Positions 5,288 through 30,612 of a stretch of 50,403 bases of DNA are shown here, piece after piece. Origin of the DNA: Acidobacteriota bacterium (GTDB taxonomy: Bacteria > Acidobacteriota > Vicinamibacteria > Vicinamibacterales > 2-12-FULL-66-21); the NCBI GenBank assembly GCA_003222675.1, contig QHWT01000092.1:1-50403 (forward strand), given 5' to 3'. Numbering within the stretch: position 1 is the first letter of the stretch; each line of letters begins with the position of its first letter. The notes below the pieces were generated by a model. It was given only the letters and a program-made list of their open reading frames with translations. It had not been told where the DNA came from and searched no databases. Made by a program: the position numbers and the translations under genes.

Positions 5288-6625
5288 TTACGCGAATCGC
5301 TCGTAATGAACTCGCCATCCGTCCACTCGCAACGCGCGAAGCGCGCCGATTACGCTCTCCATCATCGCCGGCGGTCCACACAGGAACGTTTCACGCCCCT
5401 GAATGTCGGGGACGAGCTTCTCGAGCATTGCCCCGTCAATCCGGCCTTGTAGATAGCCGTCATCGGCTTTAGCCGTTTGAGACAGGATGAAATGGCAGCG
5501 CGGCGTCAGCGCGCGCAGTTCAGCAGCGAAGACCAGATCGTTGGCGGCCCTTGCCCCGTACACCAGCACAACATCACACTTGCCGGCGAGCGACTCGATG
5601 AGCGCCCGAATCGGCGTGATACCAATGCCTCCCGCGATCATCAGGAACTTGCAACCGTTCGATGGCCCGGCGGTGAACGCTCCGAGTGGACCCTCGAGCA
5701 GCACGAGGGTGCCCGGCGTGAGATGACGGATTCGACGGGTGAAGTCACCAACGGCTTTGATCGAGATCCTGAGGAATCGTCCATTCGGCGCGGCGGAGAA
5801 CGAAAACGGATGTGGGGCCCAGTGGCCTCTTGTGAGAAAGGCCACGTTCGCGTACTGCCCGGCACGGAATGAGAATCGCTCGAGCCGTCGCCCCTTCAAA
5901 TACACTGACGTGACGTCGTCGCTCTCCGACACGATTCTATCGATCCGGAATCTGTGTCGCGCAAGGTTGAACACCGGTCGGCCGGCGCGAAACGCCAGCA
6001 AGGCGCCGATGACCGCGACGTGCAACGTCACCCAATACCACCACCACCACGGTTGCTCGAGCATTTCTGCTCCGCTCGCCTGATGGATCGAGGCGAGGCC
6101 GATCGCCAAGTACATCGCAATATGACTGGCATGCCATGCGTCGTACGTCAGATGGCGCCTGATCGGTGGCAGCGACGACGTGACGACAAGCGCGATGATC
6201 ACGAGCGCCACGATTGCCAACCAGGCATGCGGCCAGCCCGACGCGATCTTGACGAATTGTTCGCTGAGCGAGACGCGATGCCGCCGCGCGTATCCGACCG
6301 TCAGCAATACCGGATGACTCACGAACAACGGTGCGATGACAACGCCGATGTACCGATGCAGACAGTACAGTCGGTCGCATCCCACGGAAGGCTCGATCCA
6401 GGGGAGACGGCTGACGAGGGCCAGTTGAAGCAGTACAGCCGACCCGACGAGCAAGCCGACCAACCTGCCGAGCGCCACAAGGCGATTACCCGGCACGCCG
6501 CTCGATATGAGGGGGCCGGAGATGTGCCACCACGCGACGCTGAGTGCGCAGGTGTGAAGCACGCACGCTGCAGCGAACCACTGAAGCGGCGTGATCCATC
6601 GCGCGCCTCCCGCGGACACAACCAA
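5288..6625 (-). CDS. Ferric-reductase-like membrane flavoprotein (cytochrome b-type oxidoreductase)
   Basis: A 445-residue protein that should pass electrons from NAD(P)H through FAD and membrane haem to an acceptor such as ferric iron or oxygen. About six hydrophobic helices fill residues 10-215, with candidate haem-ligand histidines H90, H104, H165, H168 and H181. The soluble half is ferredoxin-reductase-like: FAD motif HPFSFS (272-277), nucleotide-binding AGGIGITP (331-338) and LCGPPAMM (415-422). I chose the TTG at 6625 because GGAG lies seven bases before it; a GTG six bases downstream is an alternative. It stands alone, facing away from the upstream genes. The acceptor cannot be read from sequence. 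Confidence 0.85.
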   Translation of the reverse strand: MVVSAGGARWITPLQWFAAACVLHTCALSVAWWHISGPLISSGVPGNRLVALGRLVGLLVGSAVLLQLALVSRLPWIEPSVGCDRLYCLHRYIGVVIAPLFVSHPVLLTVGYARRHRVSLSEQFVKIASGWPHAWLAIVALVIIALVVTSSLPPIRRHLTYDAWHASHIAMYLAIGLASIHQASGAEMLEQPWWWWYWVTLHVAVIGALLAFRAGRPVFNLARHRFRIDRIVSESDDVTSVYLKGRRLERFSFRAGQYANVAFLTRGHWAPHPFSFSAAPNGRFLRISIKAVGDFTRRIRHLTPGTLVLLEGPLGAFTAGPSNGCKFLMIAGGIGITPIRALIESLAGKCDVVLVYGARAANDLVFAAELRALTPRCHFILSQTAKADDGYLQGRIDGAMLEKLVPDIQGRETFLCGPPAMMESVIGALRALRVDGWRVHYERFA

Positions 6626-6832
6626 GGGTTCACTCCTTCGCTGTGTAGACCGGCCGCACGCGTTGGATATTCCGCCGGTCTCGCGGCGCCCACGTGGCGG
6701 AATAACGGACTGGCGCGTTCAGTCTTGTTCAGTGAGTGGGGCTCGATTCGAGCGCCGGATCCAGACGTGGTTTTAACCCTGGCGATCTCAGTGGCGAGGA
6801 GTTCATCTATCGCAGGCACGCGAACCGAGGGC

Positions 6833-8752
6833 TCATGGACTGAGCCCAATCCGGCGTTCAAGATCCTGGAATCGCCGGTCGGCGCGGAGCGAATCGAACC
6901 CCGGCCGCAGGAGGACGCTGGGGTTGAATCGCTCTTCGTAGCCGGTCTCGAGCCACGTCATCGCTTGATCGTTGTCGCCAAGCGCCGCATAGACCACGGC
7001 AATCTCCGCGGCATTCGAATAGCTGGCACGCGCGCGCGTCTTCAGATCGCCCAGCAGTTGCAGCGCTTCGTTTCTCCTGCCCGATACGGCGAACGCACGG
7101 GCGAGATTCGCGACGCATGTCGGGCTGCCTGCGGAAAGCCGTACCGCCTTCTGGAGTTCCGCGATCGCTTCATCGTGCCGCTGACCTTGGAGATACGCGA
7201 CAGCCAATTGGTTGTGTGCAAGAGGGAAATTGACGTCCATTTCGATCGTCTTGCGGCTCTGTTGAATCGATTCGTCGGTGAGATGCGCAATGAGGAGAAG
7301 CTCCGCCAGATCAGCGTTGATGATCAGCGAGAGAGGATCGAGGGTCTGCGCCTTCTTCAGTTCGGCGATCGCCTCGCTATTTTTCCCCAATACGCTCAAG
7401 TGCCACGCATACCAATGATGGGCCGTCGCGTAGCCCGGGTTCAGCTCCATGCCGCGGCGGAATTCCGTCTCGGCAGACTTCAGATCCCAATCGAACGCAT
7501 CAAGGCAAAATGCCAGCGACGTGTGAGCCTCGCCGAGCATGTTATCGAGTTGCAGCGCTTTGACGGCCGCGGCCTTCGCTCGAGGAAGCGCATCCCTGGG
7601 AGCCAGCACTCCATATTCCCAGTCGCCCAACAAGGCATACGTGTCGGCCAGGCCACTGTACGGTTGCGCGTACGTCGGGTCGCGCTCAATCGCCCGGTTG
7701 AAATAGTCGACCGCCTTTTCAAGGTCATCACCCGTTCGCTTGTTCCAGAAGTATCGCCCCTTGAGATACGCCTCGTACGCCTCGGGGTCGACCACCTTTC
7801 TTCGCTTCAGCGTGGCCTGTTCCTGCGGGTTGAGGTTGATCCGGATCTGCTCGGCGATCGCCCGCGCAACCGTGTTCTGCAGCGTCAGCGTGTCACGCAG
7901 ATCGCCGTCGTAGGAATCGGACCACAAGTGCTTGTCGTCGCGCGCTTCGATCAACTGCGCCGTGATGCGAACCTGGCCGCCGGCGCGGAGGACGGTGCCT
8001 TCGATCACGGCGTCCACATTCAGCTCGCGCGCGATCTGGGGCAGGGGCTTGCGCGCACGTTTGTACGGCATCACCGACGTCCGCGAAATCACACGTAAGG
8101 CACTGATCTGACCGAGCGTCGCAATCAGCTCGTCGGTCATCCCGTCCGCGAAATATTCCTGCGAGCCATCGCCGGATAAATTCTCGAGCGGCAATACGGC
8201 AAGCGAGCGGATCGGACCCGGCTGCGAAGCTCTCGACTGAAGAGCCCACACGATGACGATTGACGCAAGTGCCAGCGCGACGCCCGTGATCGTCCACGGA
8301 TACCACCTGCGGAAACCCGCGGGCGATGTCGGCGCGGCAACGGTCGCACGCGACTCGTCGTCTACCCGAACGAGATCGGCAGCGGTTGCGTCACGTCCGA
8401 CAATGGGAGCGCCTTCGGCGACCCCAACGTCGGCGATGAAGCGGTAGCCGCGCCGAGCGACGGTTTCCACGAATCGAGGGCTCGTCGCCGAATCACCCAG
8501 CGCGTCCCGAATCCTGTTAACGGCTTTGTTCACCCCGTGGTCGAAATCGACGAAGGTCTCGGCAGTCCACAGCCGGTTGCGAAGCTCTTCCCGAGTCACG
8601 ATCTCACCCGGCCGCTCGAGCAGCATCGCGAGAACCTGAAACGGCTGTTCCGGAAGTCTGAGCTTCATACCGTGCTTTCTCAGCTCGCCGGCTCGAAGAT
8701 TGACCTCGAATACGCCGAAACGGAGGCGGACGGGACTGCTGGCCTCTGACAT
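6833..8752 (-). CDS. Winged-helix / TolB-like / TPR transmembrane regulator
   Basis: A 639-residue CadC/ToxR-like regulator of a type common in Acidobacteriota. Residues 8-108 form an OmpR/ToxR-type winged helix (LRLPEQPFQVLAMLLERPG through RRGYRFIADV). One membrane helix spans about 150-171, so the DNA-binding part is cytoplasmic and the rest is outside the inner membrane. Residues 182-305 resemble the TolB N-terminal/adenylate-cyclase-associated domain (SLAVLPLENLSGD, FADGMTDELI). TPR-like repeats fill about 320-600. It is divergent from the ECF sigma gene at 8968 across 215 bases, so a regulatory link is possible but not shown. Confidence 0.88.
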   Translation of the reverse strand: MSEASSPVRLRFGVFEVNLRAGELRKHGMKLRLPEQPFQVLAMLLERPGEIVTREELRNRLWTAETFVDFDHGVNKAVNRIRDALGDSATSPRFVETVARRGYRFIADVGVAEGAPIVGRDATAADLVRVDDESRATVAAPTSPAGFRRWYPWTITGVALALASIVIVWALQSRASQPGPIRSLAVLPLENLSGDGSQEYFADGMTDELIATLGQISALRVISRTSVMPYKRARKPLPQIARELNVDAVIEGTVLRAGGQVRITAQLIEARDDKHLWSDSYDGDLRDTLTLQNTVARAIAEQIRINLNPQEQATLKRRKVVDPEAYEAYLKGRYFWNKRTGDDLEKAVDYFNRAIERDPTYAQPYSGLADTYALLGDWEYGVLAPRDALPRAKAAAVKALQLDNMLGEAHTSLAFCLDAFDWDLKSAETEFRRGMELNPGYATAHHWYAWHLSVLGKNSEAIAELKKAQTLDPLSLIINADLAELLLIAHLTDESIQQSRKTIEMDVNFPLAHNQLAVAYLQGQRHDEAIAELQKAVRLSAGSPTCVANLARAFAVSGRRNEALQLLGDLKTRARASYSNAAEIAVVYAALGDNDQAMTWLETGYEERFNPSVLLRPGFDSLRADRRFQDLERRIGLSP

Positions 8753-8967: not shown

Positions 8968-9579
8968 ATGAGCGACAAAACACCCGTCCACCCTCAGGGT
9001 GGCGGGCTTGCTGAACTGCTCCTTTCGCATCTCGATTCCGCTTACAACCTCGCGCGCTGGCTGGTGCGAAACGGCGAAGACGCTGAGGACGTGGTGCAGG
9101 AGGCGTACCTCCGAGCGTTCCAATATTCTGGCGGGTTCCGCGGCGGCGATGCGCGCGCCTGGCTGCTCACGATTGTGCGCAATACCTCCTATCGGTGGGT
9201 CCGGAAAACGCGTGCGTACGAGCCTGTCACGCAATTCGACGAAAACAGACATACAAGCGACAGCGAGACATCGAATCCTGAAGTGCTGCTGCTTCAGAAG
9301 GCCGACAAGCAGCTCCTCGAGAAGGCGCTGAACGAGCTTCCCGTTCGGTTCCGGGAAATTCTGGTCCTGCGCGAACTGGAGGGCCTTGCCTACAAGGAGA
9401 TCGCGGAGATCATGGGCATGCCGATGGGCAGCGTCATGTCGACGTTATCGCGCGCACGCCACCGATTCAGTCGCGCAGCCGTCGACCTCCTCAAAACGGA
9501 TTCGCCGTCGCAATTGGATGCCCACGGCCTCATCGTAGCGTTTGCGAAGACTCGAGCGCCGGAGCGGCGCGATGCGTGA
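8968..9579 (+). CDS. ECF-type RNA polymerase sigma factor
   Basis: A 203-residue ECF sigma factor. Region 2 is LDSAYNLARWLVRNGEDAED with VVQEAYLRAF; region 4 is LPVRFREILVLRELEGLAYK with the helix-turn-helix around IAEIMGMPMGSVMSTLSRAR. The frame is open further upstream, but AGGAG at 8953-8957 and the length of the family fix the start at this ATG. No anti-sigma gene follows. Its 3' end overlaps the convergent VOC remnant by about 50 bases. It is related to the sigma genes at 10727 and 16474. Confidence 0.92.
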   Translation: MSDKTPVHPQGGGLAELLLSHLDSAYNLARWLVRNGEDAEDVVQEAYLRAFQYSGGFRGGDARAWLLTIVRNTSYRWVRKTRAYEPVTQFDENRHTSDSETSNPEVLLLQKADKQLLEKALNELPVRFREILVLRELEGLAYKEIAEIMGMPMGSVMSTLSRARHRFSRAAVDLLKTDSPSQLDAHGLIVAFAKTRAPERRDA

Positions 9580-10001: not shown

Positions 10002-10730
10002 CTATGATGCCTGGAGCGCGCGGGCGAACTCGGTCAGCTCGGCATCGTTCAAGTCGGAGACCGCCCAGAACGACATGCCGTCGCGGATCCAGTGATGAAT
10101 GTGGAATCCTCGAACCAATCGAACGTCGATCGCCGCGAAGGCCCCGTCGCGTTCGGGGGACACGAATACGTTGATCGTGTGCTGCTGTCGCTGATAGACG
10201 AGCGCGGCCACCGGCCGTCCGCCGAGGTAATCCAAGCGGCCACCAACGAGCGGAAAGCCGATCGAGGCGAGGTCGACGACCGGCGGCGAGAAATCGAGCT
10301 TGCCCAGAAACCACGGTTTCACCGTGTGTTGATCTGTGGAGCGGACATCGAACAAATGATCGGCCATCAGCGAGCGCACATGGCCGTTGACCACTTCATT
10401 GACCATCGCATCACCGCGCGTCGCCGTCGATCGCATGAGTGCGATCCCGCCGCCGACCGACACGACGAGCACCGCCGCGGCCGCCCACGTGACGAGACGA
10501 CGGACCGACGTCGAGCGGGTCGTCCGCGCTGACACGCGCGCGCGCAGACGATCCGGGGCCGGATAGTACGGAGCTGATCGGACGAGCCGGCCCAGCGCTT
10601 CGCGCTCGGCGACCCGCCGGCGGCAGGCCGCGCATCCGCTGAGGTGATCGCGGACGGCTGTCGCGCCATCGGGATCGAGCTCGTGATCGACGTAGGCATC
10701 CAGGTCGCGCTCGACGTTTTCGCAGCTCAC
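10002..10730 (-). CDS. Zinc-finger anti-sigma factor (transmembrane)
   Basis: A 242-residue membrane anti-sigma factor. The N-terminal zinc motif is complete: C3, H29, C33 and C36 (HLSGCAAC). A membrane helix spans about 78-99, followed by a periplasmic domain of about 140 residues containing several histidines (for example GFHIHHW). Its ATG overlaps the TGA of the upstream sigma gene by four bases, so the pair is translationally coupled. This is the standard arrangement for ECF control, and it presumably binds that sigma factor. What the periplasmic part senses is not known. Confidence 0.9.
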   Translation of the reverse strand: MSCENVERDLDAYVDHELDPDGATAVRDHLSGCAACRRRVAEREALGRLVRSAPYYPAPDRLRARVSARTTRSTSVRRLVTWAAAAVLVVSVGGGIALMRSTATRGDAMVNEVVNGHVRSLMADHLFDVRSTDQHTVKPWFLGKLDFSPPVVDLASIGFPLVGGRLDYLGGRPVAALVYQRQQHTINVFVSPERDGAFAAIDVRLVRGFHIHHWIRDGMSFWAVSDLNDAELTEFARALQAS

Positions 10731-11248
10731 GGCAGCGTCTCCATCCGCGTTGCCGGCTTCAGCACCGCCAGCAACCGTTCACGTGCGCGCGCCAGCCGCG
10801 ACATCACGGTGCCGATCGGCACGCGCACGACCGCGGCGATCTCCTTGTACGACAAGCCTTCGATCTCGCGCAGCACGATCACTTCGCGAAAATCGACCGG
10901 CAGCTGCTCGAGCGCCGCGCGCACGCGCGCCACGGTGTGCCGCTGCAGCAGCCGTTCTTCCGGATCGAGCGCGTCATCGGGTCGTTGATCTCGTGCACTG
11001 TCCAACGGTGTCGCCTCCGTCAGGCTCGGGCGACGCGAGACCCGGCTGTACCACGTGTTTCGCACGATCGCGAAGAGCCAGGGGCGCGCGTCGTCGTCTC
11101 GAAGTGACGAAAAGAAGCGCATCGCCCGCACGCAGGCATCCTGGACGACGTCTTCCGCATCGGCGTCATTTCTCGTGAGCCACCGCGCGTAGTTGAAGGC
11201 TGCGTCCAAGTGCGGGAGGACAGTCTCTTCAAACAACCGCGGAGGCAT
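10727..11248 (-). CDS. ECF-type RNA polymerase sigma factor, partner of the adjacent anti-sigma factor
   Basis: A 173-residue ECF sigma factor: region 2 (LDAAFNYARWLTRNDADAED with VVQDACVRAM) and region 4 (LPVDFREVIVLREIEGLSYK, then IAAVVRVPIGTVMSRLARAR). The open frame extends 28 codons further, but AAGGAG lies just before the ATG at 11248 and the shorter form fits the family. It is coupled to the anti-sigma gene and divergent from the metallophosphoesterase-cupredoxin gene. ECF-promoter-like sequences lie between the two, suggesting autoregulation and control of the divergent gene. Confidence 0.93.
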   Translation of the reverse strand: MPPRLFEETVLPHLDAAFNYARWLTRNDADAEDVVQDACVRAMRFFSSLRDDDARPWLFAIVRNTWYSRVSRRPSLTEATPLDSARDQRPDDALDPEERLLQRHTVARVRAALEQLPVDFREVIVLREIEGLSYKEIAAVVRVPIGTVMSRLARARERLLAVLKPATRMETLP

Positions 11249-11257
11249 CACTCTCCT

Positions 11258-11317
11258 TAAGACATACCGTGCGGCTGTTTTATTCCCAGGAATAGACCGC
11301 TCGTGCCCGCGGTCTGT
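11258..11317. promoter_or_regulatory. Divergent ECF-like promoter pair
   Basis: The palindrome TATTCC-CA-GGAATA (11281-11294) supplies a GGAATA box on each strand. On the plus strand GGAATA (11289-11294) is followed after 17 bases by GTCTGT (11312). On the minus strand GGAATA (11286-11281) is also followed after 17 bases by GTCTTA (from 11263). These resemble ECF -35/-10 elements (GGAAC and GTC). One caveat: on the minus side the -10 box touches the ribosome binding site, which would give an almost leaderless transcript. Predicted by eye only. Confidence 0.5.
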
Positions 11318-11419
11318 ATGGGCAGCTGGCACTCATAGAGCGGCTGCACCCGCCGATCGTGCCAGACGACGACCGCTGGTTTAGGGCGCGGGCTTCTTGC
11401 GCCCGTGAGGGAGGCACCT

Positions 11420-12628
11420 GTGGCACGAACAAATGACGACAAAGATTTTGGTCGACGACACTTCCTGAAATGCATGGCGTGGGTGGGGACCGGGGCGGTC
11501 TGGACGCTGTCGAGCGGCATCCTGAAGGGATCTCCGCTCGGCCAGTTGTCACCCGCCTCGATGATGTCGCACGGAGATGGCGCGCTCCGCTTCGTCCAGA
11601 TCAGCGACAGCCACATCGGATTCGACAAGCCGGCGAATTCCGACGTCACGGCGACCCTGCGGGCCGCGATCGCGAAGATCAAGGCTGAACCCGAACCGCC
11701 GGCGTTCGTTCTGCATACCGGCGATCTGACGCATCTCTCAAGGCCGGCGGAATTCGACACGCTTCAACAGGTGCTATCGGAGCTGTCGGTACCGGTCTTC
11801 TACGTTCCGGGCGAGCACGATGTGCTCGAAGACGATGGACAGAGTTACTTGCAGCGATTCGGCAAAGGGACGCTCGGCGCGGGGTGGCAGAGCTTCGATC
11901 GCGGCGCCGTGCACTTCATCGGGCTCGTCAACGTCGTGAACCTCAAAGCGGGCGGGCTCGGTACCCTCGGCAACGAACAGCTCGAATGGCTGGAAAAAGA
12001 CGTGAAGCGGCTCACGAGCAGCACGCCCATCGTCGTCTTCGCCCACATTCCGCTGTGGTCCATCTATCCCGACTGGGGATGGGGCACCGACGACAGCGAA
12101 CAGGCCTTGTCGTATCTGAAGCGGTTTGGTTCCGTGTCGGTGCTCAACGGTCACATTCATCAAGTGATGCAGAAGGTCGAAGGCCACGTCACGTTTCACA
12201 CGGCCATGTCGACCGCGTTTCCGCAGCCGGCGCCTGGTACCGCGCCGTCGCCCGGTCCGATGAAACTCGCCGACGACCGGCTGCGCAAAGTGCTCGGGCT
12301 CTCCCGCATGTCGTTTCACGACGTGAATCATCCGATCGCGATCACTGACCTGCCGCTCGAAGCTGAGATGCCAACCGCCGGCGCGCACGACGTCGTCGTC
12401 GACAATTTCAGCTTCGCGCCGGCAATGGCCTCGGTGCCGGTCGGCACGGTGATTACTTGGACGAACCGCGACGACGTGCCGCACACCATTGTCAGCACTG
12501 AGCAGAAGTTCAAGTCGCCGGTGCTCGATACCGACGGGCAGTTCGCGCATCGATTCGACGCGCCCGGAACCTACAAGTACTTCTGCTCGATTCACCCAAA
12601 AATGACCGGTCAGGTCGTGGTGGGTTGA
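11420..12628 (+). CDS. Tat-exported metallophosphoesterase fused to a C-terminal cupredoxin domain
   Basis: A 402-residue exported fusion. RR at 12-13 (GRRHFLKC) with a hydrophobic stretch indicates Tat export. Residues 55-260 are a calcineurin-type phosphoesterase with D63/H65 (SDSH), G101-D102 with LTH, G-E-H-D (131-134), H209 and GHIH (244-247). The usual GNHD asparagine is glutamate. Residues 320-402 are a plastocyanin-like domain with blue-copper ligands H355, C389, H392 and M395 (YFCSIHPKM). I chose the GTG at 11420 because GGGAGG precedes it. It is divergent from the sigma/anti-sigma operon and followed by a second cupredoxin. Substrate and electron partner are unknown. Confidence 0.9.
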   Translation: MARTNDDKDFGRRHFLKCMAWVGTGAVWTLSSGILKGSPLGQLSPASMMSHGDGALRFVQISDSHIGFDKPANSDVTATLRAAIAKIKAEPEPPAFVLHTGDLTHLSRPAEFDTLQQVLSELSVPVFYVPGEHDVLEDDGQSYLQRFGKGTLGAGWQSFDRGAVHFIGLVNVVNLKAGGLGTLGNEQLEWLEKDVKRLTSSTPIVVFAHIPLWSIYPDWGWGTDDSEQALSYLKRFGSVSVLNGHIHQVMQKVEGHVTFHTAMSTAFPQPAPGTAPSPGPMKLADDRLRKVLGLSRMSFHDVNHPIAITDLPLEAEMPTAGAHDVVVDNFSFAPAMASVPVGTVITWTNRDDVPHTIVSTEQKFKSPVLDTDGQFAHRFDAPGTYKYFCSIHPKMTGQVVVG

Positions 12629-12658: not shown

Positions 12659-13033
12659 ATGTCCAGGTTTCTGACTGCCGCCGCTCTGGCGGCCATCGGC
12701 CTCAGTGTCGCCGCCTGCGGCGGCTACGGGAGCTCGTCGCGGACGCCGAGCGGCCCGTCGGCGCCACCGCCCCGCGCAATCGCGATAAACGTCATCGGCA
12801 TCAATGGTGCCCAGTCCTTCTCTCCGAATCCAGCGACGGTATCGGCTGGCCAGACCGTGGTGTGGCATAACATCGACACAACCACACACCGGGTGGTACT
12901 CAACGACGGCGAACTCGATACCGGCAACATCGCGCCAGGAGCGTTCAGTGCGGCGATGACGCTGGTTGCGCCGGGCCCGTACCACTGCTCGATTCATCCT
13001 CCGATGGTTGGCAGCATTGCCGGCGGTCAGTGA
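12659..13033 (+). CDS. Cupredoxin-domain lipoprotein
   Basis: A 124-residue lipoprotein: signal with lipobox LSVAAC (C20 lipidated), a Ser/Pro linker, then a plastocyanin/amicyanin-type domain. Copper ligands are H77 (TTTHR), C110, H113 and M116 (YHCSIHPPM), the same spacing as in the upstream fusion protein. It should bind a type 1 copper ion outside the inner membrane and carry electrons or buffer copper. It follows the fusion gene by 30 bases, with AAAGG before the ATG, so co-transcription is likely. Confidence 0.9.
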   Translation: MSRFLTAAALAAIGLSVAACGGYGSSSRTPSGPSAPPPRAIAINVIGINGAQSFSPNPATVSAGQTVVWHNIDTTTHRVVLNDGELDTGNIAPGAFSAAMTLVAPGPYHCSIHPPMVGSIAGGQ

Positions 13034-16473: not shown

Positions 16474-17070
16474 TCACGGGACCGCGTCTGCCTCCTGTTC
16501 TCGAGGATGTGTCCTCTTTTGAATGCCGGACTGTTTCAGCTGGTTGTCCAAGGCATCGCGGAATGCCTGACGGCCGCGCGATAGGCTGGACATGACCGTT
16601 CCAATGGGAACGTCCATCACGCCGGCCAGCTCTCGGTACGACAAGCCGTCCAGCTCCCGGAGCACGAGCAGTTCGCGAAAGCGCTCCGGCACGTGGCTGA
16701 TCGCTTGCTGGATCAACGTGACGTCATCGGTTCGAAGCAATAAGGTTTCAGGATCGGACGCTGGTCGAGCGCCGCTGTGTTGCTGTTCATCGAACGGGTC
16801 GGTCAATGCTTCGAAGCGGTTGGCGCGCCAGCTCCAACAGGTGTTGCGAACGATTCTGAGGAACCAGGCGCGACTATTTCCGCCTGTAAATGTCCGAAAG
16901 TATCGAAGGGCCCGCAGCGACGCCTCCTGCACAACATCGTCCGCGTCGTGCTCATTCCGCATCAGCCAGCGCGCCAGCCGCGAGGCTGCGGCGAGATGGG
17001 GAAGGACGAGTTCGTCAAAACTCTCACCGGTCGCATGTATCGTGGCGAGTCGGAAAGGTCGGTTATTCAT
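16474..17070 (-). CDS. ECF-type RNA polymerase sigma factor
   Basis: A 198-residue ECF sigma factor: region 2 (LAAASRLARWLMRNEHDADD with VVQEASLRAL) and region 4 (VPERFRELLVLRELDGLSYR, then LAGVMDVPIGTVMSSLSRGR). Its start ATGAATAA overlaps the SDR gene's last codons and TAA, with GGAG just upstream, so the two are translationally coupled. No anti-sigma gene is adjacent. The C-terminal tail is rich in charged residues. Confidence 0.9.
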   Translation of the reverse strand: MNNRPFRLATIHATGESFDELVLPHLAAASRLARWLMRNEHDADDVVQEASLRALRYFRTFTGGNSRAWFLRIVRNTCWSWRANRFEALTDPFDEQQHSGARPASDPETLLLRTDDVTLIQQAISHVPERFRELLVLRELDGLSYRELAGVMDVPIGTVMSSLSRGRQAFRDALDNQLKQSGIQKRTHPREQEADAVP

Positions 17071-17845
17071 TGAGTGCTCCGAGGACTTGTTGGAGTCCCT
17101 GCTCGAGCGTGGGATAGCGATACCGGAACCCGATCCCACGCAGTCGGAGGTTCGAGAACACGGCGTCCGTCTGGAGGGAGTCGGCCAGGACCGGACCAAC
17201 GACGAATCGAGCCGTCGCCGCGGGCACTCGCCACACGCGCAGAGGACGGTTCGCGAGACGTGCAAACGTTCCCGCGGCGATGACCGGCTCGATGACGCGT
17301 TCGCGAAGCCATGAGCCGTTGCCGTAGACCCACCCGGAGAACGCGGTCACGATCGGCAGTCCCGCGATCACATAGCCATCGAGACGATCGAGCACGGGCG
17401 TGAAACAGCGTCCCCAGGCGGACGACCGAGGCGGTGCGTCTTCTGTGATTGGATGAGGCCCCGTCGCGCCGTAGCAGCCCGTGTCCGCGACGTGTACAAT
17501 CCGCTTCGTCGCGCCGTCCGCCACCGCGTCCACCAGGTGCGCATCCATCAACACGAGCCTCCGTGCAATGGATCTGGCGCGTCTCCGAGTCACGCGCGAT
17601 ACGCATGCTGCGTGCGGCGGAAGATGGAAGATCCAGTCAGCCGCCGCTTCGTCCTGCCACTGACCGGGCTCGAGCAGGTCGCCCATGACGGGTACTGCTC
17701 CGGCCCGACGCAGGCGGTAGGCTGCCTCCGCGGACGGTGTGAGACCGAACACCTGATGGCCCCGGGCCACGAAGACCTTGATCAACTCAGTGCCGACGAA
17801 CCCGTCGGCGCCCGTAACAAACGTGGCCTGTCGGTCGGTTGCCAT
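17063..17845 (-). CDS. NAD(P)-binding SDR/epimerase-family protein
   Basis: A 260-residue extended or atypical short-chain dehydrogenase. The dinucleotide fold starts with VTGADGFVGTEL (10-21). Mid-protein motifs (RIVHVADTGCYG, FSGWVYGNG) resemble nucleoside-sugar epimerases, and the C-terminus (RLRGIGFRYRYPTLEQGLQQ) is typical of this group. The standard YxxxK pair is not obvious, so catalysis is uncertain. I chose MATDRQ as start, leaving only 99 bases to the divergent regulator; no Shine-Dalgarno is visible. It is coupled to the downstream sigma gene. The regulator at 17945 probably controls it. Confidence 0.8.
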   Translation of the reverse strand: MATDRQATFVTGADGFVGTELIKVFVARGHQVFGLTPSAEAAYRLRRAGAVPVMGDLLEPGQWQDEAAADWIFHLPPHAACVSRVTRRRARSIARRLVLMDAHLVDAVADGATKRIVHVADTGCYGATGPHPITEDAPPRSSAWGRCFTPVLDRLDGYVIAGLPIVTAFSGWVYGNGSWLRERVIEPVIAAGTFARLANRPLRVWRVPAATARFVVGPVLADSLQTDAVFSNLRLRGIGFRYRYPTLEQGLQQVLGALNE

Positions 17846-21719: not shown

Positions 21720-24158
21720 ATGCTGCGTACGTCCTCTCGTCGCACTGCCCGTCTCCGTCCATTCCTTACCCTGCTCGCCACTCTGCTTTGCAGCGCGCCA
21801 CGCGTTTCGGCCCAGGACGCGTCAGCGTCGATCGCCGGCAGCGTCGTAGATCCGCTCGGAGCTCGAGTCGCTGGCGCCGTCGTCACACTGCTCCGAGACC
21901 GCGAGGTTGCGAGAGGAACCACGACCGATACGCAAGGCGACTTCTCATTCGAAGCGTTGCCTGAAGGCCGCTACAGGATTCAGGCGAGCGCCGATGGATT
22001 TCAGCTCCGCAGGACGACGCAGATGTTCCTGCCGGCCGGAGCTAGAAGGAGCGTTGACGTATCGCTGCCGCTTGGCCCGCTCGAAACCGACGTGACGGTA
22101 ACGGCAGCCGCGAATGACGTCCTGCCTTCACAGATCGGCGCACCGGTCACGGTACTCGACGCCCATACGTTGAACGTCATCGGCAAGACCGACGTGCTCG
22201 AGGCGTTGCGACTGGTGCCTGGAAGCTCGCTGGTCCAGACCGGCGGCCGCGGCGGCACGACGTCGGTCTTCATCAGGGGCGGGAACTCCAATTTCAACAA
22301 GATGCTGATCGACGGCATTCCCGCCAACGACATCGGGGGCGGCATCGATCTCTCGCCGTTTGCGACGATCGGTATCGAGCGGATCGAGGTGCTTCGCGAA
22401 GCCAACAGCGTGATCGCCGGCACCGACGCCCTCGCGGGCGTCATCAGCATCACGTCGCGCCGCGGGCAGACGCGCATCCCGAACGCATCGCTGTCGCTCG
22501 ACGCCGGCAACCTGGGCACGAACCACGAGTCAGCCTCGCTTGGCGGCGTCGCGAAGCGCTTCGACTACTTCAGCGAGTTCTCTCGGTTGGTCACCGACAA
22601 CGATTTACCGAACAACCAGTACCGCAACAACACGTATGCAGGCCGGTTCGGTCTCGCGGTAGGCCACAACACTGACGTGAGCGGCACGGTGCGGTGGATC
22701 GACAAGTACTACGGAGCGCCGAACGGCGTCAGCCTCTACGGCATGCCGGATGATGCATTTCAAACCAACCGAACGCATCTTCTTGGACTGGGCAGCCAGA
22801 TGCAGTTCGCCGATAAGTGGCAAGGTTCGGTCCGCATCGGGTTGAGCGATCAGCGTGCGCACTTCATGAACCCGACACTCAGCGGGCAGAACATCTCAGG
22901 TGCGGGCTTTGGGGATACGGTCACGATCACCGGCGCGAACGGCTATTCGACGACCGGGCGCGGCGTCTTGGATTTCGGCACGTACGACTCGCAGAGCCGG
23001 TCGGCGCGGCAGGGTGTCTACGGGCAGACGACGTACCAGCTGACCCAGGGCGTGAGCCTTTCCGGCGGCGGTGACTACGAGGGGGAACACGCGTTCACCG
23101 ATCCCGATGCAGATCCAACGACGACGCGGCACAACGGAGCGGTGTGGATGGAAGGACGCGGCTCGTTCGTCGATCGCATCAGCATCACGGCAGGCCTCGG
23201 CTACGCGCGCATCGAAGGGTACGCATCCCGGTACTCGCCGCGGCTCTCCGTCGCCATCGCCGGGCGCAAGCCGGCTCCTCATGCCGTCTGGAGTGACACG
23301 CGGCTCACCTTCAACGGCGGCCGGGGAATCAAAGCGACGAGCGCGACGACGGTCGACCGATCGCTCTACAACCTTCTGCGGAAGACCGTGGCGGGTGCGG
23401 CGCTGGCCGCGAGTGAGGGCATCGGGCCGATCGGACCAGAGCGCGGCCGGAATTTGGACATTGGCATCGAACAGGGCCTGTGGGGTGGCCGCGCCCGGGC
23501 GCGAGTCGCCTACTTCCACAACGAGTTCGTCGACCTCGTCGAATTCGTCAGCAGGAACCTGCTGCCGCAGTTCGGCGTCGCGCCAGAAATCGCGGCGGCC
23601 GTGGGGACGGGCGCCTACGTCAATTCGCAGTCGTTCAAGGCGCAGGGTGCCGAGGTATCAGTTGATGCGATGTTCGGCGGTGTGCGCTTCGCCGGCTCGT
23701 ACATATACCTCGATGCCGTCGTGACGAGGTCCCTCAGCAGCTCCGTCACACCCCAATTCAATCCGCTGTTCCCAGGCATTCCGATCGGCGGCTTTACGGC
23801 GCTGGTCGGCCAGCGTCCATTCCGGCGACCGGGAAATACCGGCAACTTGCTAATTGCATACACACATCGACGGGTCGACGTGGCGCTGACCGGCTATTTC
23901 GCGGGCAAGTCCGACGACAGCACGTTCATCGTCGGCTCGGACATCAACTTCGGCAACAGCCTCCTTCTGCCCAACCACGATCTGAATTCCGGATACCAGA
24001 AGGCGGACCTGAGCGGAGCGTACCGGGTTCATCGGAGAATCAAGTGGTACGCGACCGTTGAGAACCTGCTGAATCAGCATTACGCGCCAACGTTCGGATT
24101 CCCCGCGCTGCCGATCAACCTGCGAACCGGCGTGACGATCGCCGTCGGCGGACGGTAG
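21720..24158 (+). CDS. btuB: TonB-dependent outer-membrane receptor, BtuB-like (corrinoid uptake)
   Basis: An 812-residue TonB-dependent receptor. Signal peptide to about residue 32 (PRVSAQ). A carboxypeptidase-regulatory-like beta domain follows at about 36-115 (IAGSVVDPLGARVAGAVVTL), then the plug domain at about 130-235 (VLEALRLVPGSSLVQTGGRG, FIRGGNSNFNKMLIDGIP). The remainder is a beta barrel, ending in VTIAVGGR without the usual terminal aromatic residue. CGGAGG precedes the ATG. It is directly downstream of the B12 riboswitch and upstream of BtuF/C/D-like genes, so the cargo is cobalamin or another corrinoid. The extra N-terminal domain is not in E. coli BtuB. Confidence 0.92.
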   Translation: MLRTSSRRTARLRPFLTLLATLLCSAPRVSAQDASASIAGSVVDPLGARVAGAVVTLLRDREVARGTTTDTQGDFSFEALPEGRYRIQASADGFQLRRTTQMFLPAGARRSVDVSLPLGPLETDVTVTAAANDVLPSQIGAPVTVLDAHTLNVIGKTDVLEALRLVPGSSLVQTGGRGGTTSVFIRGGNSNFNKMLIDGIPANDIGGGIDLSPFATIGIERIEVLREANSVIAGTDALAGVISITSRRGQTRIPNASLSLDAGNLGTNHESASLGGVAKRFDYFSEFSRLVTDNDLPNNQYRNNTYAGRFGLAVGHNTDVSGTVRWIDKYYGAPNGVSLYGMPDDAFQTNRTHLLGLGSQMQFADKWQGSVRIGLSDQRAHFMNPTLSGQNISGAGFGDTVTITGANGYSTTGRGVLDFGTYDSQSRSARQGVYGQTTYQLTQGVSLSGGGDYEGEHAFTDPDADPTTTRHNGAVWMEGRGSFVDRISITAGLGYARIEGYASRYSPRLSVAIAGRKPAPHAVWSDTRLTFNGGRGIKATSATTVDRSLYNLLRKTVAGAALAASEGIGPIGPERGRNLDIGIEQGLWGGRARARVAYFHNEFVDLVEFVSRNLLPQFGVAPEIAAAVGTGAYVNSQSFKAQGAEVSVDAMFGGVRFAGSYIYLDAVVTRSLSSSVTPQFNPLFPGIPIGGFTALVGQRPFRRPGNTGNLLIAYTHRRVDVALTGYFAGKSDDSTFIVGSDINFGNSLLLPNHDLNSGYQKADLSGAYRVHRRIKWYATVENLLNQHYAPTFGFPALPINLRTGVTIAVGGR

Positions 24159-24165
24159 GCGCGGC

Positions 24166-25356
24166 ATGTTTCGCGCACTCGCCGGTGTCGCATTGCTATG
24201 CGCAGTCGCCACGAGCGCACACACCTCAGACCGCCGCGCCGCGAACGTTACGACGGGGTGTGTCGATCGCTTCGATCCGATGGCTGACTACTTTCCCGAC
24301 AAGCTCGCGATCGAAGACGCCCTCGACTTCAGCGTCGAGTACCGGCGGTCCTACAAGGTGGTCACGGTCAGAGATGCAACCGAGGGTGGATTACCCGAAC
24401 GATATGTCCTCGCGCAGTGCGGGACGCCGGCGCCTCCTCTCACGGGAGGGCTCGCCGGCGCGCAGCTCGTCACCGTGCCGCTCTCGTCGTTCTTCGCGTT
24501 TTCGACCACGCATCTTCCGCTCCTGGCCGATCTCGACCGGATGGACGTGCTCACCGGCGTCGCGCAACACGATGCGGTGATGGATCCCAAGGCCAAGGCG
24601 CGGATCAAGGCAGGACACGTCGTCGAGTTCGCCAGGGTCGGCCTCGTAATCGACGTCGAGCGCGTCGTCGCCGCGAAGCCGTCGCTGCTGATGGCGACCG
24701 GAACGTCCAACGCGACGCTATCCGTGATCCGACAGGCCGGCGTCCCCGTGGTCGCGAACAGTGAATGGCGCGAGCCGACAGCCCTTGGCCGCGCTGAGTG
24801 GCTGAAGTACATGGCGCTCTTTCTCAACGAAGAACGAAAGGCGCAGGCGGTCTATGGCGACATGAAGCATCGATACCGGGGGCTGAGCGCGCGGGCCACC
24901 ACGCGGTCCGTGGCCGAGCGGCCGCTGGTGATGACCGGTCGCAGCACCCGTGGCCTCTTCACCATTGCCGGCGGTCGTTCGTACGTCGCGGCACTGATCA
25001 AGGATGCGGGCGGCCGGTACGTGTGGGCCGACAACCCCTCGGTCGGATTCGCGTCGGTGGATCTGGAAGCGCAGATTCATCGGGCGGCCGACGCCGACGT
25101 CTGGATCAACGGCGGAGGGTGGAAGAACCTTGCAGCGATGGCGGAAGACGAGCCGCGGTATGCCGCGTTCAAGGCGTTTCGACAAGGCCAGGTCTGGGTG
25201 TACGAGCGGCGTCAGACGCCGACCGGAGCAAATGACTACTGGTCGCGCAGCGTGACCCGGCCCGATCTGGTGCTCGCGGATCTCGTCAAGATCTTTCATC
25301 CAGCACTGACGCCCGAACGCGCGTTCGAGTGGTACATGCGCGTCCCGGCGCGCTGA
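24166..25356 (+). CDS. btuF: Periplasmic corrinoid-binding protein of an ABC importer (BtuF-like)
   Basis: A 396-residue class III (helical-backbone) solute-binding protein with a signal peptide (about 1-19). Two lobes are recognisable: AQLVTVPLSSFFAFSTTHLP in the first and LLMATGTSNATLSVIRQAGV joining to the second, with a long helix around ALGRAEWLKYMALFLNEERK. It is larger than E. coli BtuF (about 266 residues) and closer in length to iron-complex binding proteins. Its position between the receptor and the permease identifies its role. It starts seven bases after the receptor stop. Confidence 0.88.
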   Translation: MFRALAGVALLCAVATSAHTSDRRAANVTTGCVDRFDPMADYFPDKLAIEDALDFSVEYRRSYKVVTVRDATEGGLPERYVLAQCGTPAPPLTGGLAGAQLVTVPLSSFFAFSTTHLPLLADLDRMDVLTGVAQHDAVMDPKAKARIKAGHVVEFARVGLVIDVERVVAAKPSLLMATGTSNATLSVIRQAGVPVVANSEWREPTALGRAEWLKYMALFLNEERKAQAVYGDMKHRYRGLSARATTRSVAERPLVMTGRSTRGLFTIAGGRSYVAALIKDAGGRYVWADNPSVGFASVDLEAQIHRAADADVWINGGGWKNLAAMAEDEPRYAAFKAFRQGQVWVYERRQTPTGANDYWSRSVTRPDLVLADLVKIFHPALTPERAFEWYMRVPAR

Positions 25357-25361
25357 GCGGC

Positions 25362-26399
25362 ATGACGAAACGCGAAGCGATGACGCTCGTTGGTCTGGTG
25401 ACGCTGCTGTGTGTCGTGTTCCTGCTGTCGCTGGTGCTGGGTTCCACGGCGATATCGCTGCACCGCGTTCTTATGGCGCTGCTGGGCACGCCATCAGACG
25501 GAACTTCGGCGATCGTGGTGAGGACGATTCGCCTGCCACGTTCTGTCACAGCCATGCTGGCTGGCGCGTCGCTCGGCATTGCCGGCCTCCAGATGCAGAC
25601 GCTGTTCAGGAATCCGCTCGCGGATCCGTTCGCGCTCGGCATTTCTTCGGGAGCGAGCCTCGGCGTAGCTCTCGTCGTGCTCAGCTCGGGCTACGGCGCA
25701 GCGGCGGCGTTCGGCTCTGCCACCGGCATCCGCGGCGACGCGCTCATCACGGCGGCGGCCATCGTCGGCGCCGCGCTGGTGCTCGGATTGGTCCTCATCG
25801 TATCGAGCCGTATCGTCAACCCGACAACGGTGCTGATCCTCGGCCTGATGTTTGGCTACGCGGTGTCGGCGGTCGTAACGGTTCTCGTTGGTGCAAGCCA
25901 GCCGGAGCGGCTGGCGCAATGGGCGCAATGGGGATTCGGATCGTTCTCCGGCGTGACGTGGCAGCGGTTGCAACTGTTTGGTCCGCTGACCTTCTTCGGT
26001 GTGCTGATCGCGGCCGCGACGACCAAGCAACTCAACGCGCTGCTGCTCGGCGAGAGTTACGCGCGATCGATGGGGCTCGCGGTGAGACGCGCCCGGCTCC
26101 TGACCATGCTCTCTGCGTCCGTGCTTGGTGCCGTCGTGACCGCGTTTTGCGGCCCGATTTCGTTTCTCGGCATTGCCGTCCCGCACGTGTGCCGCGGCCT
26201 TTTGAGCACCTCGGATCATCGCGTTCTGGTGCCGGCCGTCGTGCTGATGGGAAGCGCGGGCGCCCTGTTCGCCGAGATCGTGTCGCTCCTACCGGGCAGC
26301 GCGGGCGTGCTGCCGCTCAATGCCGTGACCTCACTCATGGGCGCACCCGTCGTGGTGGCCGTGCTGCTCCGCAGCCGGCGTGGAGTGGTTGTCGGATGA
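25362..26399 (+). CDS. btuC: FecCD/BtuC-type ABC transporter permease
   Basis: A 345-residue inner-membrane permease with about ten hydrophobic helices. Family hallmarks are IRLPRSVTAMLAGASLGIAG (helix 2 region), QTLFRNPLADPFALGISSGA, and the coupling segment FCGPISFLGIAVPHVCR. It should form a homodimer moving corrinoid from the binding protein to the cytoplasm with the next gene's ATPase. I chose the ATG at 25362, five bases after the upstream stop; an earlier in-frame GTG lies inside btuF. Its stop overlaps the ATPase start (ATGA). Confidence 0.93.
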   Translation: MTKREAMTLVGLVTLLCVVFLLSLVLGSTAISLHRVLMALLGTPSDGTSAIVVRTIRLPRSVTAMLAGASLGIAGLQMQTLFRNPLADPFALGISSGASLGVALVVLSSGYGAAAAFGSATGIRGDALITAAAIVGAALVLGLVLIVSSRIVNPTTVLILGLMFGYAVSAVVTVLVGASQPERLAQWAQWGFGSFSGVTWQRLQLFGPLTFFGVLIAAATTKQLNALLLGESYARSMGLAVRRARLLTMLSASVLGAVVTAFCGPISFLGIAVPHVCRGLLSTSDHRVLVPAVVLMGSAGALFAEIVSLLPGSAGVLPLNAVTSLMGAPVVVAVLLRSRRGVVVG

Positions 26400-27403
26400 C
26401 GGCCGCGCTGCGCACGCGTGATCTGGCTGTCGGGTATCGCACGCGCCGGACCCGGCGCGCGGTCCTCGAGCACGTGAATCTTGCCGTGCATCCCGGTGAG
26501 CTCGTGTGCCTTCTCGGTCCGAACGGCATCGGGAAGTCGACGCTGCTGCGGACGCTCGCGAGGATGCAGCCGGCGTTGTGGGGCAGCGTTCACCTGGGCG
26601 GCTCGGATCTTCGCTCGATCACGAACATCGAACTCGCGCGGTGTCTGGGCGTCGTCCTCACCGAACGCGTCGCCGTCGAGGCCCTGTCCGTTCGCCGCCT
26701 CGTCGAGCTGGGGCGTTATCCGCACTCGGGATGGTTCCGCCGTATTACCGATAGCGATCGGACTGCAGTCGAGTGGGCGATTGATGCCGTCGGCGCGCGC
26801 CATCTCGCCGAGCGCGACTTCAGCCGCCTCTCCGACGGAGAGCGGCAGCGCGTCATGATCGGTCGCGCCCTCGCGCAGGAACCGGTGCTGCTGATCCTGG
26901 ACGAACCGACCGCGTTTCTCGACGTGCCGTCGCGCGTCGAGTTGATCGGTCTGCTGCGCCGGCTGACACGGGAACGTCCCCTGGCGGTTGTCGTCTCCAC
27001 GCACGATCTCGAGCTGGCGCTGCGAACCGCTGATGTCGTCTGGCTCTTCATGCCCGGCGGCGAGCTGGTGACCGGTGCTCCGGAAGACGTCGTCCTGGCC
27101 GGCAACCTCGCTCGCGCCTTCGAGGGCCGGCAGATTCGCTTTCATCCGGAAGAGCGCAGCTTCAGGCTGGTCACCGGCGATCGCGGCGAGGCGGTGGTTC
27201 ACGGCGCCGGCCTGCGTGCGAGGTTGGCCGCGGCCGTGCTCGAGCGCGAGGGCTACGCCGTGACGAACGCCACAGCTGCCGATGGGCTCGTGGTTCACGC
27301 GCGTGAGACTGGATGGCGAGTCACGAACGATCACACGGAGCGCAGCGGCGCGGACTTCGCCTCGCTCGCCGCGTTCCTGCGCGGAAGGAGAACAGCGTCA
27401 TGA
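26396..27403 (+). CDS. btuD: ABC transporter ATPase, BtuD-like, with C-terminal extension
   Basis: A 335-residue nucleotide-binding subunit: Walker A GPNGIGKST (41-49), signature LSDGE (145-149), Walker B LLILDEP (165-171) and switch histidine H203 (STHD). It powers the permease encoded just upstream, whose stop it overlaps by four bases. FecE/BtuD ATPases are usually about 250-270 residues. Here about 70 extra residues follow (from around GDRGEAVVHGAG), with an alpha/beta pattern I cannot assign. The next gene again overlaps its stop by four bases. Confidence 0.93.
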   Translation: MTAALRTRDLAVGYRTRRTRRAVLEHVNLAVHPGELVCLLGPNGIGKSTLLRTLARMQPALWGSVHLGGSDLRSITNIELARCLGVVLTERVAVEALSVRRLVELGRYPHSGWFRRITDSDRTAVEWAIDAVGARHLAERDFSRLSDGERQRVMIGRALAQEPVLLILDEPTAFLDVPSRVELIGLLRRLTRERPLAVVVSTHDLELALRTADVVWLFMPGGELVTGAPEDVVLAGNLARAFEGRQIRFHPEERSFRLVTGDRGEAVVHGAGLRARLAAAVLEREGYAVTNATAADGLVVHARETGWRVTNDHTERSGADFASLAAFLRGRRTAS

Positions 27404-27978
27404 GTATCAGCACGAAGCGGGGAGACAGTGGGGAAACCAGCCTTGCGGGCGGGGTGCGCGTGTCGAAGGGCTCCGTGCGCGTTGAGACCTACGGGACGAT
27501 CGACGAGCTGAACGCGAGCCTCGGATTTGCGCGATCGATCTGCGAGCACGTCGAGATCGCCGCATTCGCGAAGAGCATCCAGCAGGATCTCTTCAAGATT
27601 GGATCGTCGCTCGCGACGCCAACGGAGAGCCCGAAGCCGCAGATTCCGATCGACGCCGCGATGGCCGATCGTCTGACCGCCGAGGTCCATCGCCTCGAAG
27701 CCGTCGAGGGCATCCTGGCGGACTGGTCGATTGCCGGCGAGCACCGCGCCGCGGCGGCGTTCGACGTCGCGCGGACCATCTGCCGGCGGGCCGAGCGCGC
27801 GCTGGTGCGGCTGCAGGAAGCCGGCGCCGTCGTGCAGCCCGCGATCCTTGCGTACGTCAATCGCTTGTCCGACTTGTTGTGGCTGTTCGGTCGCAAACTG
27901 GAGCTCGACGCGGGCGTCAGCGGCTCTCTGCGTGAAATGACCGGTAAGGCCGGCAACCGCTTCTCGCGTGCTTGGTGA
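27400..27978 (+). CDS. pduO: ATP:cob(I)alamin adenosyltransferase (PduO type)
   Basis: A 192-residue cytoplasmic enzyme that transfers the adenosyl group of ATP to reduced corrinoid, giving adenosylcobalamin or adenosylcobinamide. Motifs are TKRGDSGETSL (nucleotide-binding N-terminus), VETYGTIDELNASLGFAR, and the C-terminal helices CRRAERALVRLQE with NRLSDLLWLFGR. AAGGAG precedes the ATG, which overlaps the ATPase stop (ATGA), so it is part of the same operon. Length matches the PduO family. Confidence 0.94.
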   Translation: MSISTKRGDSGETSLAGGVRVSKGSVRVETYGTIDELNASLGFARSICEHVEIAAFAKSIQQDLFKIGSSLATPTESPKPQIPIDAAMADRLTAEVHRLEAVEGILADWSIAGEHRAAAAFDVARTICRRAERALVRLQEAGAVVQPAILAYVNRLSDLLWLFGRKLELDAGVSGSLREMTGKAGNRFSRAW

Positions 27979-28036
27979 CGCGCCGACTCGTGCATCCTGC
28001 GGCACCGTGGCTCGTTCTGCGAGATCAAGCGAAGCC

Positions 28037-29452: not shown

Positions 29453-29466
29453 ACGATTGACGTGTC

Positions 29467-30612
29467 GTGGAGCACCACATGCACTGGGAACTTCTTCTGC
29501 AGCAATCGTTGCTCGACGTTCGACGATCCGGCCGCTTCGTCGTAGCCGACTTGAATGAGCCGCACGCCGTGCTTAGTACGTCGGTTCGCAACGGCGGTCA
29601 GGCCGATCACGTGCGTCATCTACTGAATCACCAAAGCTGCGAAGGAACCGCTCATCTCGAACGGCATCGCGTGATGACCGAGAAAGGGTTAGACGCCTAT
29701 CACGACAGGGTCTGCGCGGAAGTGGCGGTGCCGCCGGAGTGCACGGCGGTGATGGGGACGGCGGCGAACATGAACTACATCGCACTGGTCACCCAAGTCG
29801 ACGACGAATTGTCGGTGACGGCGGTGGTGACCGCCGGCGTTGAAGGGAACGCGACGACGGCGGGCGAGCCGGCGACGTGGCGCGAGAGCCACTTAGGCAT
29901 GCAGAAGGTGCCCGCCTATGCTGGCACGATCAACACGATGCTGTTGATCAACCAGCCCGTGACGTCTGCAGCGCTGGCGCGCGTGGTCGTGACGATGACC
30001 GAAGGGAAGAGCGCGGCGCTGCACCGGCTGGCGGTGCCGAGCAAGCGGCATATCGATCTCGCCACGGGGACCGGCACTGATCAGTACTGCATCGCGGCCC
30101 CGTTGTCAGGTCCACGTCCGCTCACTTCGGCGAGTCCGCACATGAAGCTCGGCGAGCTTGTCGGGCTCGCGACCCGCAATGCGACGATCGAGGCGCTGCG
30201 CTGGCAGAACGGTCTCGAAGCCAGCTACACGCGGGGGGTGTTTCACGCGCTCGGGCGATACGGCGTCAAGGAAGCGACGTTGTTCGACGACATCGCGCCG
30301 CTGCTCGGCGAGGCGGATCTCGAGCTGTTGAAAAAGAACGCGAAGGCGGCACTCTACGAGCCGCTCGTTGGCGCGGCGGCGCACGCGCTGGCGACGGTCT
30401 GCGATCGTGTCCGCTACGGCACGATTCCGGAAACCGTTGCCGCCGACGCGACCGCGCAGCAGGCGGCGGCGCTCGCGGCGAACCTGGCCGCCCAGGTTCA
30501 TCGCTGGCCGGAGTTCCGCTCGCAGCTGCGGCCGTATGCGAATTCCGACGTGAAGGCGCTCGTACTCAGAGCGCTGGCGCTCGGTTGGTCGGAAAAGTGG
30601 AGGGTGCGGTAA
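29467..30612 (+). CDS. cbiZ: Adenosylcobinamide amidohydrolase (CbiZ) with a C-terminal extension
   Basis: A 381-residue protein. Residues about 20-225 match CbiZ (VRNGGQADHVRHLLNHQSCE, AVVTAGVEGNATTAGEP, INTMLLINQPVTSAALARVV, TGTGTDQYCIA). This enzyme removes the aminopropanol side chain of adenosylcobinamide to give adenosylcobyric acid, which allows scavenged foreign corrinoids to be rebuilt. The last ~150 residues are mostly helical (from about KEATLFDDIAPL), are not part of the core domain, and I cannot name them. The start is a GTG at 29467; an ATG four codons later is an alternative. Its end overlaps the cbiB start. Confidence 0.9.
   Translation: MEHHMHWELLLQQSLLDVRRSGRFVVADLNEPHAVLSTSVRNGGQADHVRHLLNHQSCEGTAHLERHRVMTEKGLDAYHDRVCAEVAVPPECTAVMGTAANMNYIALVTQVDDELSVTAVVTAGVEGNATTAGEPATWRESHLGMQKVPAYAGTINTMLLINQPVTSAALARVVVTMTEGKSAALHRLAVPSKRHIDLATGTGTDQYCIAAPLSGPRPLTSASPHMKLGELVGLATRNATIEALRWQNGLEASYTRGVFHALGRYGVKEATLFDDIAPLLGEADLELLKKNAKAALYEPLVGAAAHALATVCDRVRYGTIPETVAADATAQQAAALAANLAAQVHRWPEFRSQLRPYANSDVKALVLRALALGWSEKWRVR

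Follow-up and report, generated by a model that had tools for sequence, protein, structure and literature searches.

The window analyzed here, a stretch of 50,403 nucleotides from an Acidobacteriota bacterium (contig QHWT01000092.1), contains a 60-bp intergenic stretch (11258-11317) from which two gene sets diverge, i.e., an ECF sigma factor gene with its anti-sigma gene on one side, and a gene for a metallophosphoesterase (MPE)-cupredoxin fusion on the other. The features at issue are as follows:

5288..6625, minus strand: gene for a ferric-reductase-like membrane flavocytochrome, a candidate for the regulon (Pfam Ferric_reduct, FAD_binding_8, NAD_binding_1)
6647..6673, minus strand: third GGAATA-N17-GTCT site, 21 nt 5' of the TTG start of the ferric-reductase-like gene, with AAGGAG in between
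6699..6725, plus strand: fourth GGAATA-N17-GTCT site, forming a head-to-head pair with 6647-6673, with no gene seen downstream on the plus strand
10002..10730, minus strand: anti-sigma gene, with a zf-HC2 N-terminus (Pfam), a membrane helix (by eye) and an extracytoplasmic domain like the RseB/MucB C-terminal domain (structure model)
10727..11248, minus strand: ECF sigma factor gene, 173 aa, ATG at 11248 (Pfam Sigma70_r2 and r4_2; best NCBIfam model NF009185/PRK12533, under its cut-off)
11260..11286, minus strand: putative ECF promoter of the sigma/anti-sigma operon, GGAATA-N17-GTCT (sequence and upstream conservation at sigma)
11281..11294, both strands: two abutting -35 boxes, TATTCC-CA-GGAATA, one on each strand and 2 bp apart, a gap also of 2 bp at locus L011 (genome G003)
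11289..11315, plus strand: putative ECF promoter of the MPE-cupredoxin operon, GGAATA-N17-GTCT, ~100 nt 5' of the GTG at 11420 (sequence and upstream conservation at MPE)
11420..12628, plus strand: MPE-cupredoxin fusion gene, GTG start with GGAGG upstream, alternative start at 11405 (Pfam Metallophos, Cupredoxin_1, Copper-bind)
12659..13033, plus strand: gene for a small cupredoxin-like protein, a lipoprotein by eye (Cupredoxin_1, E 6e-4, under cut-off)

The phosphoesterase part of the fusion is calcineurin-like, and its N-terminus is twin-arginine-like (GRRHFLKCMAW, by eye); the protein is probably exported. The small cupredoxin-like gene follows after a 30-bp gap and probably belongs to the same operon, with a 52% relative adjoining the module in another genome (G133). 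In genome G091 (L014 and L015), the match to the fusion is spread over several reading frames, indicating either a broken gene or an assembly error. Further along the window, 21720-31600 holds genes that we take by eye to resemble those for a TonB receptor, ABC import and cobalamin metabolism.

A span of ~8 kb contains three related genes for ECF sigma factors (8968-9579, 10727-11248 and 16474-17076), the outer two being 48-49% identical to the middle one; it is beside this middle gene that an anti-sigma gene was seen. The structure model of the anti-sigma protein (pLDDT 85.5, pTM 0.58) aligns with the RseB/MucB C-terminal domain (PDB 2v42) over 94 residues with a Z of 8.0, an rmsd of 2.8 and 14% identity (Foldseek versus RseB, E 9e-4), while its N-terminal part resembles RsiW (5wuq, Z 7.3) as well as RslA and MucA. 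A single polypeptide would thus unite a zinc-finger part of the RsiW/MucA kind with a domain resembling RseB/MucB. Across an alignment of 45 of the 68 ORF references, 17 columns are invariant; H117, W140 and H184 are among these and lie past the membrane helix. The model suggests that the extracytoplasmic part is a periplasmic sensor-type domain, at a Z near 8 that is moderate and speaks to the fold only.

A preliminary description of this DNA had reported a palindrome with GGAATA on both strands, each copy followed after exactly 17 bases by GTCT. This proved exact in the window letters (TATTCC at 11281-11286, CA at 11287-11288, GGAATA at 11289-11294), the two elements running from 11286 to 11260 on the minus strand and from 11289 to 11315 on the plus strand. 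GGAATA occurs 10 times on the two strands of the window, and for spacers from 8 to 30, GTCT was found at spacer 17 alone, four times. These four sites compare with a mean of 0.01 in 200 Markov-1 simulations; with the spacer relaxed to N15-19, the count is still four versus 0.11 expected, a number reached in 0 of 100 shuffles. The genome scan proposed in the same description yielded seven N17 matches in 7.16 Mb, four of them inside the window; a short look at the other three found no convincing promoter context. For GGAATA-N16-18-GTCT, the whole genome holds nine matches and three for the reversed control pattern.

The remaining two window sites form a second head-to-head pair (6673..6647 on the minus strand and 6699..6725 on the plus strand, 25 bp between boxes), which the preliminary description did not contain. 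Its left member fits the ferric-reductase-like gene as a candidate promoter. The site at 6699-6725 points into the 3' end of a convergent regulator gene (8752..6833), where it may mark an antisense start. Among 149 genomes searched, the ferric-reductase-like gene matched in its own genome and two others, those two being 32-34% identical, and in 16 module genomes it had no match at 1e-30. A loose scan for GGAA-N18-20-GT at the two distant loci gave six matches, none of which begins with GGAATA.

Conservation of the putative promoter elements across module loci

A search of genome contigs with the MPE-cupredoxin protein returned at least 561 relatives among at least 594 matched stretches, of which the best 80 loci were kept; in the set of 149 relatives' genomes, the fusion occurs in five, its own genome counted. 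L001-L010 (own-genome sites and window copies) were dropped before counting, and the fragments L013-L015 were dropped from the upstream windows. Of 87 locus rows, among which two row pairs are overlapping pieces, 75 have a sigma gene (E <1e-15) next to MPE, and some of the 12 rows without one stop at a contig edge. The gene orders are MPE then sigma (53 rows), divergent (18), sigma then MPE (3) and convergent (1), with none found in 12. Apart from MPE, sigma and anti-sigma, the families recurring in at least three non-Bradyrhizobium flanks are led by a DUF2231-like gene (9 loci; the rest in 6 or fewer). By gene neighborhood, the MPE-cupredoxin gene is part of a widespread MPE/ECF sigma/anti-sigma module. 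Sites of the GGAATA type stand next to these genes in numerous soil bacteria.

Within 300 bp upstream, GGAATA is present at 69 of 84 MPE windows and 19 of 75 sigma windows, and the exact GGAATA-N17-GTCT pattern at 19 and 8 of these, respectively; GTCT at N22 was found three times for MPE and once for sigma, and at the other 11 spacers within 12-24 not at all. The loci were also split by record title. Among the 36 non-alphaproteobacterial MPE windows, 30 contain GGAATA, 22 have N17-GT (GT at the other spacers from 10 to 25 averages 1.2 windows) and 16 have N17-GTCT. The 29 non-alphaproteobacterial sigma windows give 19, 16 and 8 for the same three patterns. Of 48 alphaproteobacterial MPE windows, 39 contain GGAATA, three have N17-GTCT and 26 have GATC at N16-17, whereas none of the 46 alphaproteobacterial sigma windows contains GGAATA, fitting a gene order that mostly places sigma 3' of MPE in the same orientation. 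At spacers from 10 to 25 other than 17, GTCT was counted in four alphaproteobacterial MPE windows, one non-alphaproteobacterial sigma window and none of the remaining two classes. Judged from these windows, conservation is strongest in the -35 box; the Bradyrhizobium branch has a different -10, which is mostly not GTCT.

With respect to divergent loci, L013 and L016 represent one place and were treated as a single entry, leaving 17. In twelve of these, the interval from sigma to MPE has GGAATA-N17-GT on both strands (the window, L011, L012, L016, L024, L030, L033, L038, L040, L053, L087 and L094), while five lack one or both boxes in this form; both sides are therefore conserved in orthologous loci, the comparison on which the preliminary description had made its reading depend. 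The gaps between the -35 boxes are 2, 2, 12, 14, 22, 25, 53, 54, 54, 84, 173 and 226 bp. Beyond the window, the 2-bp gap is found at L011 alone, in a genome (G003) with an MPE 88% identical to that of the window. Because the gap varies from 2 to 226 bp, the palindrome is incidental, a by-product of close packing, and the "shared" -35 region of the preliminary description consists of two separate -35 boxes. At L016 (G133), the plus-strand box is separated from MPE by two genes, one for a Tat-type and one for a small cupredoxin; this box, more than 400 nt from the next called start, thus faces an operon rather than MPE itself. At 2020-2077 of L144 (G157), genes for a cupredoxin and an ECF sigma factor flank a further head-to-head pair, with -35 boxes 4 bp apart.

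The exact pattern occurs 125 times in 20 module-bearing genomes versus 14 times when reversed, module sites being included in the 125. From 14 genomes, 60 hand-chosen stretches gave 64 distinct sites beyond those counted at module loci. A called gene start lies within 300 nt of 38 of these 64, and of 30 of 35 sites at module loci and in the window, both counts being uncorrected for random positions; starts were called with a codon-position filter, which missed tatA at L029. As 26 of the 64 have no called start within 300 nt, some of the 125 may not act as promoters. At L029 (482-2701, Gemmatimonadetes), the motif stands ahead of four consecutive genes, tatA, tatC, sigma and anti-sigma (tatA and tatC by Pfam; site 49 nt away), an order that matches the twin-arginine-like N-terminus of MPE; there, the Tat translocase is apparently under the sigma factor predicted to control a Tat-type protein. 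Other sites precede genes for TatA and a DoxX-like protein (L140), cupredoxins (L144, L165) and a DUF2231 protein (L161), all named by Pfam. Pfam naming of nine site-downstream proteins left three without a family, including a TatC stretch read out of frame and named later. Many of the other targets are mixed, and may belong to other sigma factors of those genomes.

Proposed reading as divergent promoters, and its alternatives

We consider it highly likely that the 60-bp stretch comprises two divergent ECF26-type promoters for the sigma factor encoded at 11248..10727, which, once its anti-sigma factor is inactivated, would drive the sigma/anti-sigma and MPE-cupredoxin genes, with a third promoter copy at the ferric-reductase-like gene. 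What sequence and conservation establish is the presence, spacing and placement of the elements and the cross-phylum association of these with the module; that the encoded sigma factor is the user of the GGAATA-N17-GTCT sites is what we infer from them. A signal outside the cytoplasm would inactivate the membrane anti-sigma factor. Sigma-bound RNA polymerase would then read (i) the leftward site, producing sigma and anti-sigma in an autoregulatory manner, (ii) the rightward site, producing MPE-cupredoxin and the small cupredoxin-like protein, and (iii) the third copy, producing the ferric-reductase-like protein. With a gap of 2 bp, two holoenzymes could presumably not occupy both promoters together, and the two would be expected to compete. 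The signal itself may concern redox, copper or sulfite in the periplasm. GGAATA upstream of both genes across loci also supports the proposals of the preliminary description that one side serves sigma/anti-sigma and the other MPE-cupredoxin, and that the sigma factor controls itself along with the copper-protein module; the conserved motif at both genes makes autoregulation probable.

The promoters might instead be used mainly by a paralogous sigma factor (8968..9579 on the plus strand or 16474..17076 on the minus strand), or be shared among paralogs. Both paralogs lie within 6 kb at 48-49% identity, the genome contains 49 sigma region-4 matches (43 above cut-off), and ECF26 sigma factors of Sinorhizobium meliloti have overlapping targets and activate a foreign ECF26 promoter, as described in the available part of the source. 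Yet across phyla, the motif goes with the module's own sigma and anti-sigma genes, and none of the four exact window sites precedes a paralog gene, leaving this option unlikely. Far less probable is that TATTCC-CA-GGAATA constitutes the operator of a dimeric regulator, with the GTCT words incidental. Its 6-bp arms are perfect in the window and in G003; however, GTCT stands at exactly 17 bp in all four sites, and the other 10 two-box loci keep the -35/N17/-10 structure with boxes too far apart (12 to 226 bp) for the palindrome. With gaps between boxes this variable (2-226 bp), we rejected the operator. Coincidental word matches in a GC-rich genome, for which the three other N17 matches without convincing context and a number near that of the reversed control might speak, are a negligible prospect against four sites found versus 0.01-0.11 expected and a motif conserved across phyla.

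The same reading bears on the sigma transcript. The preliminary description had flagged the closeness of the minus-strand -10 to the Shine-Dalgarno sequence as its weak point, an observation that was right: the ATG at 11248 lies 11 nt past GTCT. In relatives, the sigma start follows the -10 at 12 nt (G003, where no Shine-Dalgarno sequence was seen between the two), 9 nt (G010) and 12 nt (G133). The remaining 12 of 16 loci compared have 20 to 65 nt before the homology-defined start, and the short distance is thus a local feature; by eye, L027 and L084 have an in-frame ATG 11 and 7 nt past the -10, respectively. For S. meliloti ECF26 promoters, the printed starts lie 8-9 nt past GTCT (PMC6180224, as available in part), if the final base printed is read as the start, a choice with which the table's lower-case rule and its lower-case final letters agree. 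Transferred to the window, this would leave a sigma leader of ~3-4 nt that excludes AAGGAG, and a sigma mRNA that is predicted to be nearly leaderless, in keeping with the flagged weak point.

These considerations tie a promoter code mapped in alphaproteobacteria to a module of copper protein and phosphoesterase found in Acidobacteria, Gemmatimonadetes and Rhizobiales. The MPE-cupredoxin family thereby gains a testable regulon, the module being open to study in culturable Bradyrhizobium or Xanthobacter, and the near-leaderless sigma gene offers a simple prediction for 5'-end mapping. A fuller picture, which we put forward only speculatively and hold to be rather doubtful as a whole, is that of a cross-phylum ECF26-type regulon centered on a phosphoesterase-cupredoxin fusion exported by Tat, for which the sigma operon sometimes supplies tatA-tatC genes, a regulon in which the sigma mRNA is (nearly) leaderless, abutting promoters compete in a trade-off between autoregulation and effector output, and the anti-sigma factor has a built-in RseB-like sensor domain.

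Comparison with known ECF systems

The literature searched yielded no description of an MPE/ECF sigma/anti-sigma module, though a large ECF classification paper may list it; the available parts of PMC8103513 and PMC8999054 contain nothing on it. The cross-species ECF26 consensus combines a -35 GGAATA with a -10 GT (PMC6180224), that of S. meliloti and Starkeya a -35 GGAAT with a -10 CGTC (PMC6527743), and the printed sequences of two S. meliloti promoters, those of rpoE4 and SMc01418-rpoE1, have the form GGAATA-N17-GTCT (PMC6180224); all are taken from the available portions of these papers. The window sites agree with this consensus in -35 GGAATA, -10 GT and a spacer of ~17 bp.

With regard to the sigma factor itself, RpoE6 was recognized on pSymA by its printed promoters, and RpoE7 of ECF16 likewise by its printed promoter. 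In pairwise comparison, the window sigma factor is 38.8% identical to RpoE6 (76 bits) and 37.8% to Escherichia coli RpoE (82 bits); a sigma profile (83 rows, including window copies and paralogs) scores RpoE6 at 130.8 bits, E. coli RpoE at 122.3 and RpoE7 at 33.3. In a tree with E. coli RpoE as root, read without regard to support values, RpoE6 nests among the module sigma factors. Since the window sigma factor cannot be placed clearly closer to RpoE6 than to E. coli RpoE, we term only the promoters ECF26-type. ECF16 (EcfF/BcrS) was dropped as a match, its promoter being different (GTAAC; available parts of PMC3420878 and PMC8315932). The anti-sigma layout of ECF26, i.e., an N-terminal anti-sigma domain, one membrane helix (by eye) and an extracytoplasmic domain, is present downstream of the window sigma gene. 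An anti-sigma profile (72 rows, three of them window copies) matches the ORF after rpoE6 on pSymA (E 5e-7), which tblastn with the window anti-sigma protein against pSymA did not match at E 1.

As far as the accessible text of the respective papers extends, the closest likeness is to S. meliloti RpoE1/RpoE4 (PMC6180224, PMC3511301), with which the window shares the -35 GGAATA, the -10 GT(CT), the 17-bp spacer, and an autoregulated sigma operon with a membrane anti-sigma gene downstream, autoregulation here being predicted from the sigma operon having the promoter type of its targets, by sequence and conservation. RpoE4 targets include sulfite oxidase, cytochrome c and pseudoazurin (azu2, a blue copper protein beside sulfite oxidase; PMC3511301), whereas those of the window are the MPE-cupredoxin fusion and, as a candidate, the ferric-reductase-like gene. 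A divergent target is also known for S. meliloti RpoE6, with the serine-protease gene SMa0142, an arrangement widely conserved among ECF26 (PMC6180224); there, the target differs and the putative rpoE6 promoter is described as RpoD/RpoH-like. Starkeya novella SigE/sorAB (PMC6527743) likewise places an ECF sigma and an anti-sigma gene beside a redox enzyme with a GGAAT/CGTC consensus, but SnSigE does not activate its own promoter, and its inducer is sulfite. Finally, the counterparts of E. coli RseA/RseB and Pseudomonas aeruginosa MucA/MucB would, according to the structure model, be joined in one polypeptide in the window anti-sigma factor.
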